Part shown: in pieces, positions 32,160 through 40,517 of the stretch
Layout of the letters: each line of letters starts with the position of its first letter
Numbering within the stretch: the stretch's first letter is position 1
NCBI GenBank assembly: GCA_029858505.1
Contig: JAOUEW010000002.1
Location: forward strand, 478,851-542,850
Source of the DNA: Deltaproteobacteria bacterium
GTDB lineage: Bacteria > SAR324 > JACQKK01
DNA length: 64,000 bases
Direction: 5' to 3'
Notes under the pieces: generated by a model
Told to the model about the DNA's origin: nothing
What the model saw: only the letters and a program-made list of their open reading frames with translations
The model's database searches: none
Position numbers and translations under genes: made by a program

Positions 32160-33554
32160 ATGCCAGGAACGACCATGCAGTCCGAAAAAGGGTTAAAGCG
32201 GATCAAAGTTACGCAATTGGAGCCGGGGATGGTGATTCGCTCGGTGGTTGCCCTGTCTTTCGATTATTCGGTGCTGGACCCCAAAACCATCGAATTTCTG
32301 CAGAAAAATTTAGACGGTGCCACCGCCATGCTGGCGGGGAATTCGGGTGAGCGGACAGCTTCCATGAAAGACCTGAAACCCTTTGACCACTTGGTGGGGA
32401 TTTCCAACATTCCAGAGGGTCTGCCCTATTTTCAGTTTCGCCCCCAGTTGCCAGCGGCCTTGGAAAAGCAAGGCTTTGTTGAGGTGGAGGTGGCTGAAGG
32501 GAAGGGGTCTGGCGCCCCGGCTATTCGGATGGTGGACGAAGCTACCCGAAAGTTGGCCCAAGCCAGAGCCGCGGAAGCCAAGGCCATGATGGAAACCGTA
32601 GAAAAAGCCGTCGATCATCGCCATCAATCCACCAATGTGGTGGAAAACATGTTCGATCAAGGGCGTAAAGGGGCCTATACCTCCTCGGAAGTGGAGTCGA
32701 TGGTGGGGCAGATTATGGCGGTGGGGTCATCGCCTGCCATCAAAGCCATTTCTGGATTAAAGGGGAGTGACCAAACCTACGCCCATTGTGTGGATATGGC
32801 GGTGATTCTGCAGGAGTGTTACGGCGATATTATGAAGATGATCGGCAAGCCCCTGACCCCCGAAACCCGGCATTTTGTTTTGGTGGCGGGCTTCATGCAC
32901 GATATTGGAAAAAGCGAGGTGCCCAAGGAGGTGCTCGACAGCCAGCAACGCTTTATGCCCGACAGCCGGGAAATGATGATCATGCGGAACCACACCACCT
33001 ACGGGGCCCGGATCCTCTCTCAGATGGGGCTGAACAAAACGGCCATCAACGTGGCTCATTTTCATCACGTGAAAAAAGACCAAACGCTCTACACCAGTTA
33101 TCCAGACGTGAAATACGAAGAAGTGTTGCCTCTCACCCGGCTGGCGGCGGTGGTGGATGTGTATCAAGCGTTGATTGGCCGCCGGAAATACAAGAAAAAC
33201 TGGGTTCCGGGGAAAGCCATTGAGTATATTTTAAAACTATCCGGCAGCGAGTTCGATGACGCCGTGGTGGATAACTTTGTTCGGGTAATGGGGCATTACC
33301 CGGTGGGGTCCTTGGTGCGGCTTTCCAACAATGACTTGGGGTTTGTGGTTCGGCTGGCCCCCTACGAACAACCCACCCACCCCTTGGTGGCGGTGGTGGA
33401 AACCGCCGGGGGCCAACGGTTGACCCATGCCCACTTGGTGGATTTGCTGGTGGAGCAGGATATTTCCGTGAAGGAAGTGGTGGATCACTATGCCCATTTC
33501 AACGCTTCTGAAGACGAAGCGTTCAATATCTTCCGCTCCATTCAGATCTCTTGA
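32160..33554 (+). CDS. HD-GYP domain protein with a degenerate GYP motif
   Basis: The N-terminal 30 residues (IKVTQLEPGMVIRSVV) resemble the DUF3391 lead-in of HD-GYP proteins. A coiled linker follows. The HD domain has YAHCVDMA, His247-Asp248 in FMHDIGKSEVP, His278 in NHTTYGA, His302-His303 and Asp333 in VVDVYQALIGRR. The cyclic-di-GMP loop usually reading HHExxDGxGYP is HHVKKDQTLYTSYP here. Metal ligands seem intact but the GYP loop is not, so it may have altered nucleotide specificity. Met6 is an alternative start. It ends five bases before the glutathione synthetase gene. Confidence 0.85.
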   Translation: MPGTTMQSEKGLKRIKVTQLEPGMVIRSVVALSFDYSVLDPKTIEFLQKNLDGATAMLAGNSGERTASMKDLKPFDHLVGISNIPEGLPYFQFRPQLPAALEKQGFVEVEVAEGKGSGAPAIRMVDEATRKLAQARAAEAKAMMETVEKAVDHRHQSTNVVENMFDQGRKGAYTSSEVESMVGQIMAVGSSPAIKAISGLKGSDQTYAHCVDMAVILQECYGDIMKMIGKPLTPETRHFVLVAGFMHDIGKSEVPKEVLDSQQRFMPDSREMMIMRNHTTYGARILSQMGLNKTAINVAHFHHVKKDQTLYTSYPDVKYEEVLPLTRLAAVVDVYQALIGRRKYKKNWVPGKAIEYILKLSGSEFDDAVVDNFVRVMGHYPVGSLVRLSNNDLGFVVRLAPYEQPTHPLVAVVETAGGQRLTHAHLVDLLVEQDISVKEVVDHYAHFNASEDEAFNIFRSIQIS

Positions 33555-33559
33555 GGGTT

Positions 33560-34939
33560 ATGCCCCCTGCACTCGATTCAACGGTGGAGCCAGATCGCGT
33601 TCGTTTGGCGGTGGATTGGGCGTTGTCGCATGGTTTGGTGTTGATGACGGATGATCTACGGGCGGTTCACGCCCCATTTGCCCTGTCTCCCGCTCCCATT
33701 TCTCTCCCTGATTTGGAAGGCATGTCGGCCCTGACAGGGCTGGTGGGTCGGGCCTACCTGCGGGCGGCCGCGGACCTTCCATTTTTACTGGAGGCCCTGG
33801 GAGAGTCCTTGGCCGCGGATGCTTACACGGCCATGGTGGCCCGGCTGGCCCGGCCAGAACAAGGGGGGCGGAAGTCTCAAACCCTGCGGCTGCAGGTGTT
33901 CCGCTCCGACTATTATCGGAGACAGGGGAATCCGCCGGGGCAAATCGAAGTGAACACCGTGGCGGCTGGGTTTTTTACCCTGGCGGGTCGGGTGAACCGG
34001 CTTCATCGGTACCTGATGGCGGGAACCCCCCTGGGGCATCAGTTGGTGGAAAACGATCCGTTGGTTGGCGTGGCCGAAGGTTTTGCGCGGGCCTTCCGGG
34101 CCTATGGCCGGGAAGACGGGGTGGTGTTGATGGTGGTGCAGCCCCAGGAAAAAAACAGGACTGACCAACGGGGATTGGAGTTTGCCCTGGGGGCCCAGGG
34201 CATTCCCTGCGTGCGGATGACCCTGCAAGAAATCGCTCAAGCGGGCATCTTGCGTGAGGGCCACTTGATGGTTCACAACCGCCTAGCGGCGGTGACCTAC
34301 TTTCGGGCGGGTTACGCCCCCCTGGAATATCAAACCCCAGAGGCCTACCGGGCCAGGGAAATGATTGAGCAATCCTCGACCATTGCCGTTCCCGATGCGG
34401 CCACCCAACTGGCCGGCATGAAAAAAGTGCAGCAAGTGCTGGCCCGGCCTGGAGAGCTGGCCCGGTATCTGCCCCCAGAGGAAGCCAGCCGCTTGGCGGC
34501 TTCGTTTGTGGCCATGCATGGCGCCCAGGACACAGTTTCGGGAGAGGCTGGGCCCCAAGAAGCGTGGGAATTGGCCGTGAAAAAACCCGGGGCCTGGGTG
34601 GCCAAGCCCCCCCGAGAAGGGGGGGGCAACAATCTGTTTGATGAAGACATGGTGAAGTTTTTGAAAACCGCCTCCCCCCAGCAACGGGCCGGATGGGTGT
34701 TGATGGAGCGGATGGTTCCACCCCATCACCAAGCATGGCTAGTGAGGAATGGCGAGGTCCGTCAGGCGGCCTCTCATACGGAAGTGGGGCGGTTTGGGGT
34801 GTTGTTGGCGGAGGACCAGCGGGTGCTTTGGGAAACCGACGCGGGGTATTTGGCCCGAACATCTCCCCGAGAGGCCAAGGAAAGCGGGGTGTCTGCCGGA
34901 TTTGGGGTGTTGGACAGCCTGTATCTTGAAAAATCTTAG
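33560..34939 (+). CDS. Glutathione synthetase, eukaryotic type
   Basis: It joins gamma-glutamylcysteine and glycine to make glutathione. The 459-residue product follows the eukaryotic GSS family block by block rather than bacterial GshB: QIEVNTVAAGFFTLAGR, TYFRAGYAPLEYQ, IAVPDAATQLAGMKKVQQ, the ATP-grasp loop KPPREGGGNNLF, WVLMERMVPP, EVGRFGVLL and a glycine-rich end SAGFGVLDSLY. No gamma-glutamylcysteine ligase is adjacent. It follows the HD-GYP gene by five bases, so co-transcription is likely. The start was taken at the ATG; a TTG overlapping the upstream stop is less likely. Confidence 0.92.
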   Translation: MPPALDSTVEPDRVRLAVDWALSHGLVLMTDDLRAVHAPFALSPAPISLPDLEGMSALTGLVGRAYLRAAADLPFLLEALGESLAADAYTAMVARLARPEQGGRKSQTLRLQVFRSDYYRRQGNPPGQIEVNTVAAGFFTLAGRVNRLHRYLMAGTPLGHQLVENDPLVGVAEGFARAFRAYGREDGVVLMVVQPQEKNRTDQRGLEFALGAQGIPCVRMTLQEIAQAGILREGHLMVHNRLAAVTYFRAGYAPLEYQTPEAYRAREMIEQSSTIAVPDAATQLAGMKKVQQVLARPGELARYLPPEEASRLAASFVAMHGAQDTVSGEAGPQEAWELAVKKPGAWVAKPPREGGGNNLFDEDMVKFLKTASPQQRAGWVLMERMVPPHHQAWLVRNGEVRQAASHTEVGRFGVLLAEDQRVLWETDAGYLARTSPREAKESGVSAGFGVLDSLYLEKS

Positions 34940-35182
34940 GGGCGGAAAGTGTTTTATTCCGTTTTCAGGGTCCGGCATAAGATTGTTCTTCCAATCACCG
35001 CGAATTCATCCAGGATAAGTTTTGAGGGGTCCTCGCCAGGTAAATCCTGTTTTCGTGAATGATAACATAGATAAAATAAGGGTATTTATAGGACAGGCCT
35101 GCCTGGATTTGGTTTTGCTGGCGCGAGTCTGTTGACCACAAAATAAAAATCGTTGAAATACGATTTATTTTTCAATTCCCCA

Positions 35183-35212
35183 TTGACATTCCCCACGGAA
35201 CTTCGTTATTCA
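35183..35212 (+). promoter_or_regulatory. Sigma-70-like promoter before a structured region
   Basis: A perfect -35 TTGACA (35183-35188) is followed 18 bases later by TATTCA (35207-35212) as a -10. The expected start of transcription, about 35219, falls just ahead of the first hairpin at 35226. Confidence 0.6.
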
Positions 35213-35218
35213 TTGGAA

Positions 35219-35467
35219 AAGTTTTCCGCGCCTTCGGGGCGCGGGGCCTGTCGGCCGCCAGGGAAGGAGGCCGATGGGGCGTGATGGAAACCGGTCGCTG
35301 GGTTAATTTGTGTAGCGTTTCGGTAAAACCATCACGGTGGAAAGCCAGGCAGTTTTCAGGGACGAAAACGCATGCCGGGTGACACCCTTTCGTTGAAGAC
35401 CAGAGTTACGTGGTTGGCCTAGGGTGTTGAAAGAAACTGGTTTCCCCCAACAGAATTATTCTTGGGG
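35219..35467 (+). ncRNA. Candidate structured non-coding RNA or long ftsA leader
   Basis: No open frame explains this GC-rich stretch, but four hairpins follow one another. H1 is 35226-35244 (CCGCGCC with GGCGCGG). H2 is 35251-35274 (TCGGCC with GGCCGA, loop holding GGGAAGGA). H3 is 35281-35335 (GTGATGG with CCATCAC, inner stems ACCG/CGGT and CGCT/AGCG). H4 is 35348-35376 (GGCA-GTTTTC with GAAAAC and TGCC, loop AGGGAC). A later weak hairpin (CCCCAA 35445-35450 with TTGGGG 35462-35467) might mark the end but lacks a T run. I found no match to RNase P, SRP, tmRNA or 6S signatures. Confidence 0.5.
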
Positions 35468-35583
35468 TTCATGCCAGTTCCCGCTCCATTGCATTTCCCT
35501 CCGTTGTTGCTGGCCTTCCCCCCAAAACAAACGCAATATTTTTAATCCTTCCCGGATGTTCACCCCTTTTCCGGGAGGCTGAT

Positions 35584-36834
35584 ATGTCGGTTGTCACCCA
35601 GGATGAACGGGGAATCCTGTTCGCTCTTGATATTGGCACCACCAAAATATGCGCCCTGGCGGCCACCGCCACCCCCGGAGGACTGCTGAACATCATTGGG
35701 TTCGGCCAAGCTCCTTCCATGGGAATGCGGAAGGGGGTGGTGGTTAATATCGAAAAAACCGTGGAATCCATCCGCCAGGCCGTGCGGGAGTGCGAGTTGA
35801 CCAGCGGCGTGGCCTTTAACCGGGCCGCCACCGGGGTGGCTGGCAGCCACATCCAGGGACGCAACTCCCGGGGCATGGTGACCGTGCAATACAACCGCAC
35901 CGTGTCCGAGGACGACATTCGCCGGGTGATTGAAGCGGCCCAGGCGGTGAATATTCCGAATGACCGAGAGGTTCTCCACATTCTGCCCATGGAATTCATC
36001 GTGGACGACCAGAATGGGGTGCAGAACCCCCTGGGCATGTCTGGGATTCGCCTGGAGGTGAACGTTCATATCGTCACTTGCTCTGCCACCGCGGCTCAAA
36101 ACATCGTGAAGTGCTGCAATCTGGCGGGGTTGGAGGTGTCGAGCTTGGTGTTAGAGCCCCTGGCCAGCGCCCATGCGGTGCTGACCCCCGATGAGCGGGA
36201 GCTGGGGGTGGCCGTGGTGGACATTGGGGGAGGAACCACCGACATCGCGATTTACTCTGAAGGAAGCATTGTTCACACCTCGGTGCTGGCGGTGGGGGGA
36301 AACCACCTGACCCACGACATCGCCATTGGCTTGTCCACGCCCATCGCCGATGCAGAGATTTTGAAACACAAATACGGAATTGCCCTGTCATCCCTGGTGG
36401 AACCGGAAGAACGAATTGAAGTGCCCTCGGTGGGGGGGCGCAAGACCCGTCTGCTGGACCGCCATCTTATCGCCGATGTGATTGAACCCCGCTTCCGGGA
36501 AATATTTGAGCTGGTCAACCGGGAGTTCGATCAGTCGGGACTGCGGTCGGCTATTGCCTCTGGGGTCATTATTACCGGGGGCTCCAGCCTCATGGCCGGA
36601 GCCGATGAACTGGCCGCGGGGATATTAAAACTCCCCGTCCGGGTGGGATTCCCGGAGGGAATGACTGGGTTGGATGACACCCTTCATTCCCCCATGTATG
36701 CCACTGGCGCCGGGTTGCTACGCCACGCTCTTTCTCACGCCCCTCAAATGCAGGCCCCTGGGCCCCATGTGGAGGAAGCCATGCTAAACCGATTCTCCCG
36801 CCGCTGGCGGGAATGGGTCAATGAGTTGTTTTAA
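35584..36834 (+). CDS. ftsA: Cell division protein FtsA
   Basis: This actin-like ATPase tethers FtsZ to the membrane. Phosphate-binding loops are FALDIGTTKICAL and VVDIGGGTTDIAIY; the connecting 1C subdomain lies around 90-165. The C-terminal amphipathic tail (MLNRFSRRWREWVNELF) is the membrane-targeting helix. The ATG is preceded by GGGAGG. It is 24 bases ahead of ftsZ. No ftsQ, ddl or mur genes precede it. Confidence 0.97.
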   Translation: MSVVTQDERGILFALDIGTTKICALAATATPGGLLNIIGFGQAPSMGMRKGVVVNIEKTVESIRQAVRECELTSGVAFNRAATGVAGSHIQGRNSRGMVTVQYNRTVSEDDIRRVIEAAQAVNIPNDREVLHILPMEFIVDDQNGVQNPLGMSGIRLEVNVHIVTCSATAAQNIVKCCNLAGLEVSSLVLEPLASAHAVLTPDERELGVAVVDIGGGTTDIAIYSEGSIVHTSVLAVGGNHLTHDIAIGLSTPIADAEILKHKYGIALSSLVEPEERIEVPSVGGRKTRLLDRHLIADVIEPRFREIFELVNREFDQSGLRSAIASGVIITGGSSLMAGADELAAGILKLPVRVGFPEGMTGLDDTLHSPMYATGAGLLRHALSHAPQMQAPGPHVEEAMLNRFSRRWREWVNELF

Positions 36835-36858
36835 CAAACCTTTTATTAGGAGTTCCCC

Positions 36859-38265
36859 ATGGGCATGACTTTGCTGAAAGACACGATCAACCGGGATTCC
36901 TACAACACGGATAAAGTGCGCCCTGCCGTTATCAAAGTGATCGGCGTGGGTGGCGGCGGCGGAAACGCCGTCAACCGGATGATCAGCCAAGGATTGAAGG
37001 GGGTGGATTTTATCGTGGCCAACACCGACCTGCAGGACGTTCGCTCGTCGCTGGCCACCCACCGCATTCAACTTGGAGCCAAGTGCACCCGTGGATTGGG
37101 TGCCGGTGCCAAGCCGGACACCGGTCGGGAAGCCGCCCTGGAAGACCTGGACATGATTCGTGAGTATTTGGCCGATGCCGACATGGTGTTTGTCACGGCT
37201 GGCATGGGCGGCGGCACGGGTACCGGCGCCGCGCCGGTGATTGCCGGCTTGGCCAAAGAAATGGGCTGCCTGACCGTGGGCGTGGTGACCCGGCCCTTTA
37301 CCTTCGAGGGAAAAGTTCGCCGTCGGAATGGGGACCACGGAATCAACGAGCTGAGAAATCACGTGGACACCCTGATTGTTATTCCCAACGACAACCTGCT
37401 GGGACTGGCCAACAAAAACACCACCATTATCGAGGCCTTTACCATGGCCGATGACGTGTTGCGGGTGGCGGTGCAGGGGATTTCGGATCTGATCAATACC
37501 GATGGTCTGATCAATCTAGACTTCGCCGACGTTCGCACCGTGCTCTCTGGGATGGGGCAAGCCATCATGGGCATTGGTGAAGCGACCGGAGAAGGCCGGG
37601 CCCTGAAGGCCGCCCAGAAAGCCATTCAAAGCCCCCTGTTGGATAACGTAAATATCAACGGTGCCAAAGGGGTGCTGGTGAACGTGACGGGGTCCCGCTC
37701 CATGACTCTCCATGAAGCCTACGAGGCAGCTTCCTTTATAGAAGAGCACGCCGATGAAGATGCCAACATTATCTTTGGCGCCTGCATTGATGAATCTTTG
37801 GAAGACCGGGTGGAAATCACCGTGATTGCCGCCGGGTTTGGGGAGGGTTCTCCCGTTCGGGCGGGAAAGGATGCCCGTCATGTTGAACCAGAAACGGTGC
37901 GTGGACGCCCCACTCTGACTTCTTATCCGGGCGGGCGGGCGGCAGCTCCGGCACAGCCTACGCCCTCTTTCGCTCAACCCGTGGCGGCGGTCGTTCGCCC
38001 CAAGCCCGTGGTGATGGAAGAATTGTTCCCCCCCACCCACGAAGAACTGCGGCCGATGGCAGGGAAAGTTACACCAACCGAAGAGGAGGATTATATTTTT
38101 GAATTGGATGAACCCATGATGGAGCCCATTGAAACGCTGCCCAGGGTACCTGGCTACACATCCGGATACCCCAATTCCCCTGCGGGTCACGATCTTCAAG
38201 ATGGATCGGACCTGGATGTTCCTGCCTTCATTCGACGGGGCCCTTCCCGGTTCCCCAAAGACTGA
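36859..38265 (+). CDS. ftsZ: Cell division protein FtsZ
   Basis: This tubulin homologue forms the division ring. The GTP-binding signature GGGTGTG is at residues 117-123, with [12 protein letters not shown] near the start and the T7 synergy loop INLDFADV. After a variable linker (about 330-440) the conserved tail [10 protein letters not shown] (452-461) contacts FtsA and ZapA-like partners. The start is supported by TAGGAG ahead of the ATG. The length of 468 is within range. Confidence 0.98.
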
Positions 38266-38592: not shown

Positions 38593-39441
38593 ATGAATTG
38601 GAAAACCCGTTTGTTATGGAAACGCAGCGCGGGAATGCTGTTGCTGTCACCTTTGGCGGCATGGGCAGCCCTGTTTTTAGCCCAATTGGCTTATTTGCTC
38701 ACCAAGGATTCGGACTTGTCTGATTGGCAGGGATTGTTTCAGACCGGTTTGTTGGGCCTGATGTTAGGCGGGTTATTTGGCTTTTTGGAAAATCTCTCCA
38801 TTACCCCCCCCCGAAACCTGTGGAAACCCCTGTTGTGGGGGGCTGTTCCTGGCATGGGCTTGGCCCTGGCTTTCCACCAGATCACGGACGGCAATGGCCT
38901 TCCCTTCATGGTGGGGGGGGCCTTGGGGGGCGGGTTGCTGGGGGGGCGGCTGCAACGCCGGGAACCCTTGGCTCGATTGGCCCAGGTGCTACTAATCATG
39001 GGCTTATGGTATGGCATCCCGCTGTTTACGGAACAGGTGCTCCAGTTTTTTCCTCAGGATTTCATCGGATATTTAATTTTGTTGTCGGTTTGGACCTTGG
39101 GGGCCGCCCTGTTGGTGCAAGGGGTGAACCTGCTCACTCTGCGACGGTGGTTTCGGCTGGTGGTGGGGGGGCAGGAAGAAACCATTTACCCCTTGTGGGG
39201 CCAACGGATTGTGGTGGGGTATCATCCGGGATGTCAGGTGAATCTTTCTCCCAAGGGAGAGGTCTTTCCTCGCCATTGCGTTTTGCAATGGGAAAACGGT
39301 CACTTTGAAATCATTGACGATGAGCAAGGGGGGATCGTGTATGTGAACTTCCGCCCGGTGCAATCTCACACCCTTAAGCATGGCGATATGGTCCGTTTGG
39401 GTACCGTGCTGCTGCAATATGGCGAGCGAGGCGGGCCATGA
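38593..39441 (+). CDS. Membrane protein with C-terminal FHA domain
   Basis: The first 190 residues are hydrophobic, with about five membrane segments and glycine-rich stretches (GLMLGGLFGF, VGGALGGGLLGGRL). The C-terminal 85 residues look like a forkhead-associated fold: RIVVGYHPGCQVNLSPKG, then VFPRHCVLQWENGHFEIID and LKHGDMVRLG. FHA domains bind phosphothreonine peptides. The usual GR at the start of the core is GY here. It overlaps the next FHA gene by four bases (ATGA), so both belong to one complex or pathway. No kinase is nearby. Confidence 0.8.
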   Translation: MNWKTRLLWKRSAGMLLLSPLAAWAALFLAQLAYLLTKDSDLSDWQGLFQTGLLGLMLGGLFGFLENLSITPPRNLWKPLLWGAVPGMGLALAFHQITDGNGLPFMVGGALGGGLLGGRLQRREPLARLAQVLLIMGLWYGIPLFTEQVLQFFPQDFIGYLILLSVWTLGAALLVQGVNLLTLRRWFRLVVGGQEETIYPLWGQRIVVGYHPGCQVNLSPKGEVFPRHCVLQWENGHFEIIDDEQGGIVYVNFRPVQSHTLKHGDMVRLGTVLLQYGERGGP

Positions 39442-40517
39442 GGTCTATTCTCGGGTATTTGGGGGCTATGGCTGGTTTGTTTTTGTGGGCCGGGCCTGCA
39501 GGGGCTTACGAGGAAATCTATTATTTTCCCGGTGAAGGAGACATTCTTCCGGTGACCCATTCGGTGGTGCAGGGGGAATGGATGGGATGGGCCGGGATAT
39601 TTGTTGTAGTGGCCGCCACCTTGGCCGGATTTTTAGGCTGGTCTAGGGTTCGATTGCTGCCCCAGCGCGGCCTAGAGCCAGGCTTTGAACTGGTATCCAC
39701 CAACAAACCAAGAACCTTCATCCCTCTGCCAGGGAAATACCTGACATTAGAGTTTGTGGGAGAGGTTGCGGCAGCTCATCAATTGCGGGTTCCGGCCAAT
39801 TTGGGCAAGGTTTCTTTGTCCATCCGCCGAAACGGATACCTGCTGGAGGATAAAAATTATCGCAACGTATTGCTGGTGAACCGTCGGCGGGTGCGGCGAA
39901 CCCTGCTGAAAGATGGGGACCTGCTGGATGTGGGTGAGTTGACCCTGGTGTATCGGGATATTCGGGTGCAGCACCATGCTTCTACCAGCCCTGGTGAATC
40001 CCATCAGGTAGAACAGGAAAAAGCTTACCTTCGGTTTCACCGGCCCCGGGGCCCCATTCGGAAGGGCATTCCCATGCTGATTCCGCATCAAATGCCCAAC
40101 CGGGTGTATTACATGACCAAAAACATGATGTTCATTGGCCGGTCGGAGTCGAACGACCTGGTGGTGAAGGCCGCCAATATTCACCTGCGGCATGCTAAAA
40201 TTTTAAGAGTAGGGGGGCGCTACAAACTGTTGGACTTGGCCCTGGCTGGATCTACTTTTGTGAACAACCGCCGGGTGGAACAAAAGTTCCTTAAGGATGG
40301 CGACGAACTGGCGTTTGACCTGCAAAAGTTTCGGTTTCAATTGGTCACCCGGCCATTGAAAGAATTTATGCCGGTGTCTTTCCCCGACCGGTTCCAAGAT
40401 GCCCTGGCTTTGAACCTGCCCAAAGAAGACCAGGAGGAAGGCCTGACTGAAGAACAGGGAGAGGAGCCTTCCTTGTTGGATGACCCCGAGGAGATTCATC
40501 CCTCGGTTTCCACTTAA
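39438..40517 (+). CDS. Membrane-anchored protein with two FHA-like domains
   Basis: A signal-like N-terminus (to about residue 23) and a second membrane segment (51-68) precede a cytoplasmic part. An FHA-like unit at about 100-175 (RRNGYLLEDKN, LLKDGDLLDVGELTLVY) lacks the Arg and Ser core. A better one at 225-305 keeps IGRSESNDLVV, LRHAKILRVGGRYKLLDL, GSTFVNNRRV and LKDGDELAF. The C-terminus is acidic. It is translationally coupled to the preceding FHA protein and 22 bases from argB. The first domain may be structural, the second the phosphopeptide reader. Confidence 0.82.
   Translation: MRSILGYLGAMAGLFLWAGPAGAYEEIYYFPGEGDILPVTHSVVQGEWMGWAGIFVVVAATLAGFLGWSRVRLLPQRGLEPGFELVSTNKPRTFIPLPGKYLTLEFVGEVAAAHQLRVPANLGKVSLSIRRNGYLLEDKNYRNVLLVNRRRVRRTLLKDGDLLDVGELTLVYRDIRVQHHASTSPGESHQVEQEKAYLRFHRPRGPIRKGIPMLIPHQMPNRVYYMTKNMMFIGRSESNDLVVKAANIHLRHAKILRVGGRYKLLDLALAGSTFVNNRRVEQKFLKDGDELAFDLQKFRFQLVTRPLKEFMPVSFPDRFQDALALNLPKEDQEEGLTEEQGEEPSLLDDPEEIHPSVST

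Follow-up and report, generated by a model that had tools for sequence, protein, structure and literature searches.

CsrA is a dimer that is able to bridge two sites, and the form of site that it prefers is a hexaloop on a short stem; in the hag leader of Bacillus subtilis there are two ANGGA sites, one of which lies on the Shine-Dalgarno (SD) sequence. The recognition motif of CsrA/RsmA is A(N)GGA, and leaders repressed by these proteins through multiple sites include those of glgC, pgaA, hcnA and others (PMC4066749), while the CsrA-FliW/hag system of B. subtilis has been described in PMC6529632. Among conserved predicted CsrA functions, a 2026 preprint on gamma-proteobacteria gives ftsZ as an example, and it stresses that few CsrA targets are common to different species (PMC12889724). 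CsrA-controlled leaders are well known as a kind; the literature searched contained no case of direct control of ftsA by CsrA, in the lineage considered here or elsewhere.

We analyzed the region preceding ftsA on the forward strand of the window, i.e., the whole 64,000-nucleotide stretch of DNA from genome G000, and consider it probable that this region serves the ftsA(-ftsZ) mRNA as a long, structured 5′ leader in which two hairpins present ANGGA to CsrA. Rather than a new class of RNA, it seems to be a further example of a kind already known. The leader is headed by a putative forward-strand promoter (35183-35212) comprising TTGACA (35183-35188), an 18-nt spacer and a weak -10 element, TATTCA (35207-35212). 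Of the promoter proposed in an earlier, sequence-only reading, the perfect TTGACA and the 18-base spacing hold, but the -10 is poor: it has three of six matches to TATAAT and is absent from the promoters listed by a consensus scan. Nevertheless, TATTCA occupies the exact place of TATAA(N) in the ftsA leaders of relatives, with the configuration TTGACA-18 nt-TATAA(N) lying before ftsA in eight members of the same family (as the variant TATAGA in one of them). Transcription presumably starts near 35219.

Of this region, 35219-35400 folds with z = -4.1, the strongest point in a 120-nt fold scan of 33000-38000 is at 35220 (z = -5.2), and the entire 368-nt leader yields z = -2.3. The four consecutive hairpins that had been proposed from the letters alone do fold at or close to those positions, each with a z-score between -2.9 and -3.9. 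Hairpin 1 (35226-35244; z -3.9) is of the CCGCGCC-UUCG-GGGCGCGG type, and folds of several relatives place a hairpin of other sequence there. Hairpin 2 (35247-35278; z -3.3) displays the loop AGGGAA (35260-35265) with CC/GG closing, within overlapping AGGGA and AAGGA motifs at 35260-35268, and is the candidate CsrA site 1. The compound hairpin 3 (35280-35336; z -3.7) contains an AUGGA (35284-35288) that is not presented. Hairpin 4 (35344-35380; z -2.9), the candidate site 2, contains GUUUUC[AGGGAC]GAAAAC at 35352-35369, an ANGGAN hexaloop on a 6-bp stem with AGGGA at 35358-35362. The earlier observation of GGA runs in two loops is borne out for both 35260-35268 and 35358-35362. Further downstream, the leader fold includes a hairpin (35549-35575; UCCCGG...CCGGGA) that adjoins and partly covers the ftsA Shine-Dalgarno sequence GGGAGG; the only near-SD candidate in the window is a degenerate CGGAUGU in this hairpin, whereas ANGGA is found near the start in relatives and in a sister family. 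As had been claimed, no reading frame accounts for the hairpins (no ORF of at least 50 aa covers 35183-35400), and an Rfam search of the window, also at a relaxed threshold, gave no credible match to a known RNA family. A repeat element was ruled out by the stretch being single copy in its genome.

Downstream of the leader, ftsA (35584-36834, forward strand) matches TIGR01174 with 451.5 bits, the cut-off being 175.85, and ftsZ (36859-38265, forward strand) follows directly on its 3′ side with 417.8 bits to TIGR00065. Several other features of the neighborhood were recorded: The gene 5′ of the leader (33551-34939), which overlaps an HD-domain gene (32160-33554), codes for a eukaryote-type glutathione synthase (PF03917, PF03199) with 305.8 bits to TIGR01986, below its cut-off of 329.8. 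After ftsZ come two FHA-domain proteins in succession (38593-40517), the first of which has membrane-like segments, and this pair is also kept in the related genome G004. Another relative, G001, encodes a second, shorter FtsZ-like protein near argB (L143:175-1161), besides its normal ftsZ.

None of the relatives returned belongs to the same genus as the window genome, the nearest being other genera of the same family, and a DNA search with 35150-35470 across 58 relatives recovered short chance matches only. Thus, leader DNA similarity has been lost between the window and its relatives; a common plan is nonetheless visible in the regions upstream of ftsA in eight family members, with leaders of 330-570 nt, measured from the -35, bearing widely spaced hairpins. 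A GCAA[ANGGAN]UUGC hairpin, with small variants, occurs in all eight, its ANGGA beginning 65-78 nt downstream of the first base of the -35; the ANGGA of the window's hairpin 2 lies at +77. A second site, GUC[ANGGANN]GAC, is present in several of the eight at about 185-214, to be compared with +175 for hairpin 4 of the window. Nearer the ftsA start the relatives have a third hairpin, in which ANGGA is constant while the stems differ (GCCC/GGGC, AUUC/GAAU, GGCUC/GAGCC). These ANGGA-loop hairpins at matching offsets, together with the csrA gene of the genome, uphold the idea of the CsrA motif in loops before ftsA. The Rfam search at the relaxed threshold, run on the relatives too, returned nothing credible, which speaks against interpreting their conserved 5′ element as a riboswitch. 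RNAalifold on the relatives recovers the 6-bp site 1 stem only, where both partners of a single pair have changed, and since this stem is nearly invariant among them its covariation says little. A covariance model (R1) built on the 5′ domain of the relatives finds the ftsA leader as best match in the eight other genomes, these being self-hits by construction, and gives no match in the window up to E = 10. The window's own leader is therefore divergent, both in failing the relatives' model and in having no clear site near the ribosome-binding site.

The presentation of ANGGA in loops can also be evaluated statistically. Under a strict rule (a loop of 6-7 nt containing ANGGA, on a contiguous stem of at least 3), the nine leaders contain 21 sites, against 1.35 +/- 1.1 in dinucleotide shuffles (maximum 6 in 500). 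With a stem of at least 4, 15 of 36 leader ANGGA motifs lie in hairpins as opposed to 41 of 931 in the background (Fisher P = 9e-11, a value inflated by relatedness). ANGGA itself is 2.6 times denser in the leaders than in the background, which here comprises the other sequence of the window and the fetched family loci. Relatedness inflates the enrichment P-values, even though little of the leaders can be aligned beyond the motifs themselves.

Beyond the family, a rearranged version of the theme is seen in the sister family f2, where 23 of the 24 ftsA starts carry CAUGGAUGCC, nearly always within GAGGAGCAUGGAUGCC, the motif at the start being summarized as CAUGGAUG. With the starts lying inside GAGGAGCAUGGAUGCC, the ANGGA overlaps the spacer between the Shine-Dalgarno sequence and the start codon. 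Seventeen of those 23 have another ANGGA at -82 to -94, whose flanking arms differ by genus and mostly pair: UUUUAC[AUGGAU]GUA, GCUUC[AUGGAA]GAAG and the imperfect UUAAC[AUGGACA]GUAAA. This arrangement is separate support for the predicted control of ftsA by CsrA. It is not consistently present in the more distant families f3 and f4. In one f2 genus (g11; L043:1-1510 and other loci), a conserved AACAUGGACAGUAAAUUGCA located some 90 nt 5′ of ftsA has a potential pairing partner in a downstream UGCAAUUA, giving a possible long-range helix.

The regulator itself is encoded throughout the family: csrA of the window genome matches PF02599 with E 2.4e-25, every other genome of the family has the gene, most of them as one copy, and fliW likewise occurs in the window genome and all its family. 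In the window genome the gene order is flgL-csrA-fliW. Contig C8 of that genome bears six flagellin-like genes (L177-L182), one of which (L179) has ANGGA at -33 and -14, one on the SD (UUACAAGGAGGUA), resembling hag; the other flagellin genes vary. We infer that CsrA binds the window hairpins, that repression is the sign of its effect and that FliW is linked to it. Bound CsrA would act on the ribosome-binding site or on message stability, the most likely effect being lowered synthesis of FtsA (and FtsZ), and FliW, whose gene adjoins csrA in the flagellar operon, would act by titrating CsrA, thereby tying division-gene expression to flagellar assembly. As a broader and more tentative proposal, for which we see somewhat less than an even chance, the flagellar CsrA-FliW switch might, throughout an entire SAR324-like order, directly control ftsA-ftsZ via a long multi-site leader, coupling flagellar assembly to division.

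The sequence-only reading had left the choice between a stand-alone small RNA and a control leader for division genes, and the evidence comes down on the side of the leader, given the relatives' ANGGA loops, and against the small RNA, given the lack of a terminator in eight of the nine leaders. A CsrB/RsmZ-like RNA that starts at about 35219 and sequesters CsrA without controlling ftsA could indeed explain why a promoter is followed by several GGA hairpins and no ORF, and the relative L037 does have a weak terminator-like hairpin within its leader. However, neither the window nor seven of the eight relatives has an intrinsic terminator, no Rfam CsrB/Rsm match was obtained in the window or the relatives, the relatives have a site close to the ftsA start, and the element keeps to ftsA while the genes upstream vary among genomes. 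The absent terminators and this fixed linkage despite changing upstream genes favor a cis-acting leader and make the stand-alone RNA quite improbable. We accord an equally small probability to a leader residing in the ftsA mRNA that serves mainly to titrate CsrA and less as a target of its regulation; multiple sites far 5′ of the start in relatives and the single csrA copy of most genomes would suit such a sponge, but the near-start sites of the relatives and the sites in the SD-start spacer of the sister family argue for control of ftsA itself.

A further alternative, unlikely but a little less so than these two, is that the relatives' leaders are CsrA targets and the regulation has been lost in the lineage of the window, with its hairpins now having another role, such as hiding the ribosome-binding site or stabilizing the message. 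The failure of the window under the covariance model and the hairpin adjoining the SD (35549-35575) are in keeping with such a loss, as is its single site under the strict rule (P ~0.06 for the window alone). Against it, the AGGGAC hexaloop on its 6-bp stem (35352-35369) fits the CsrA motif, and both window offsets agree with those of the relatives: 0.06% of 5000 window shuffles combine an ANGGA hairpin (stem of at least 2) at the offset of site 1 with another (stem of at least 4) at that of site 2, in a test defined after seeing the relatives.

If the CsrA-controlled leader is real, a CsrA target that two families have retained, with the sites rearranged, would represent a rare long-lived link between CsrA and division. 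It would also offer, in an uncultured and poorly known lineage, a connection between motility and division that is simple to test, with the suggestion that the same regulator controls cell division and flagella. Compared with the sponge RNAs CsrB/CsrC and RsmX/Y/Z, the element shares the repeated GGA hairpins but differs in lacking a terminator and an Rfam match, in having fewer sites and in being fixed to ftsA. With the glgC, pgaA and hcnA leaders it shares several A(N)GGA hairpins, one of them near the start codon in the relatives, unlike these, the window is without a clear site at the ribosome-binding site, and CsrA binding is predicted here. The hag leader of B. subtilis offers a likeness in the csrA-fliW pair within the flagellar operon and in the ANGGA leader sites; unlike hag, the target here is ftsA rather than flagellin, and the leader extends over 330-570 nt from the -35 with its hairpins widely spaced.
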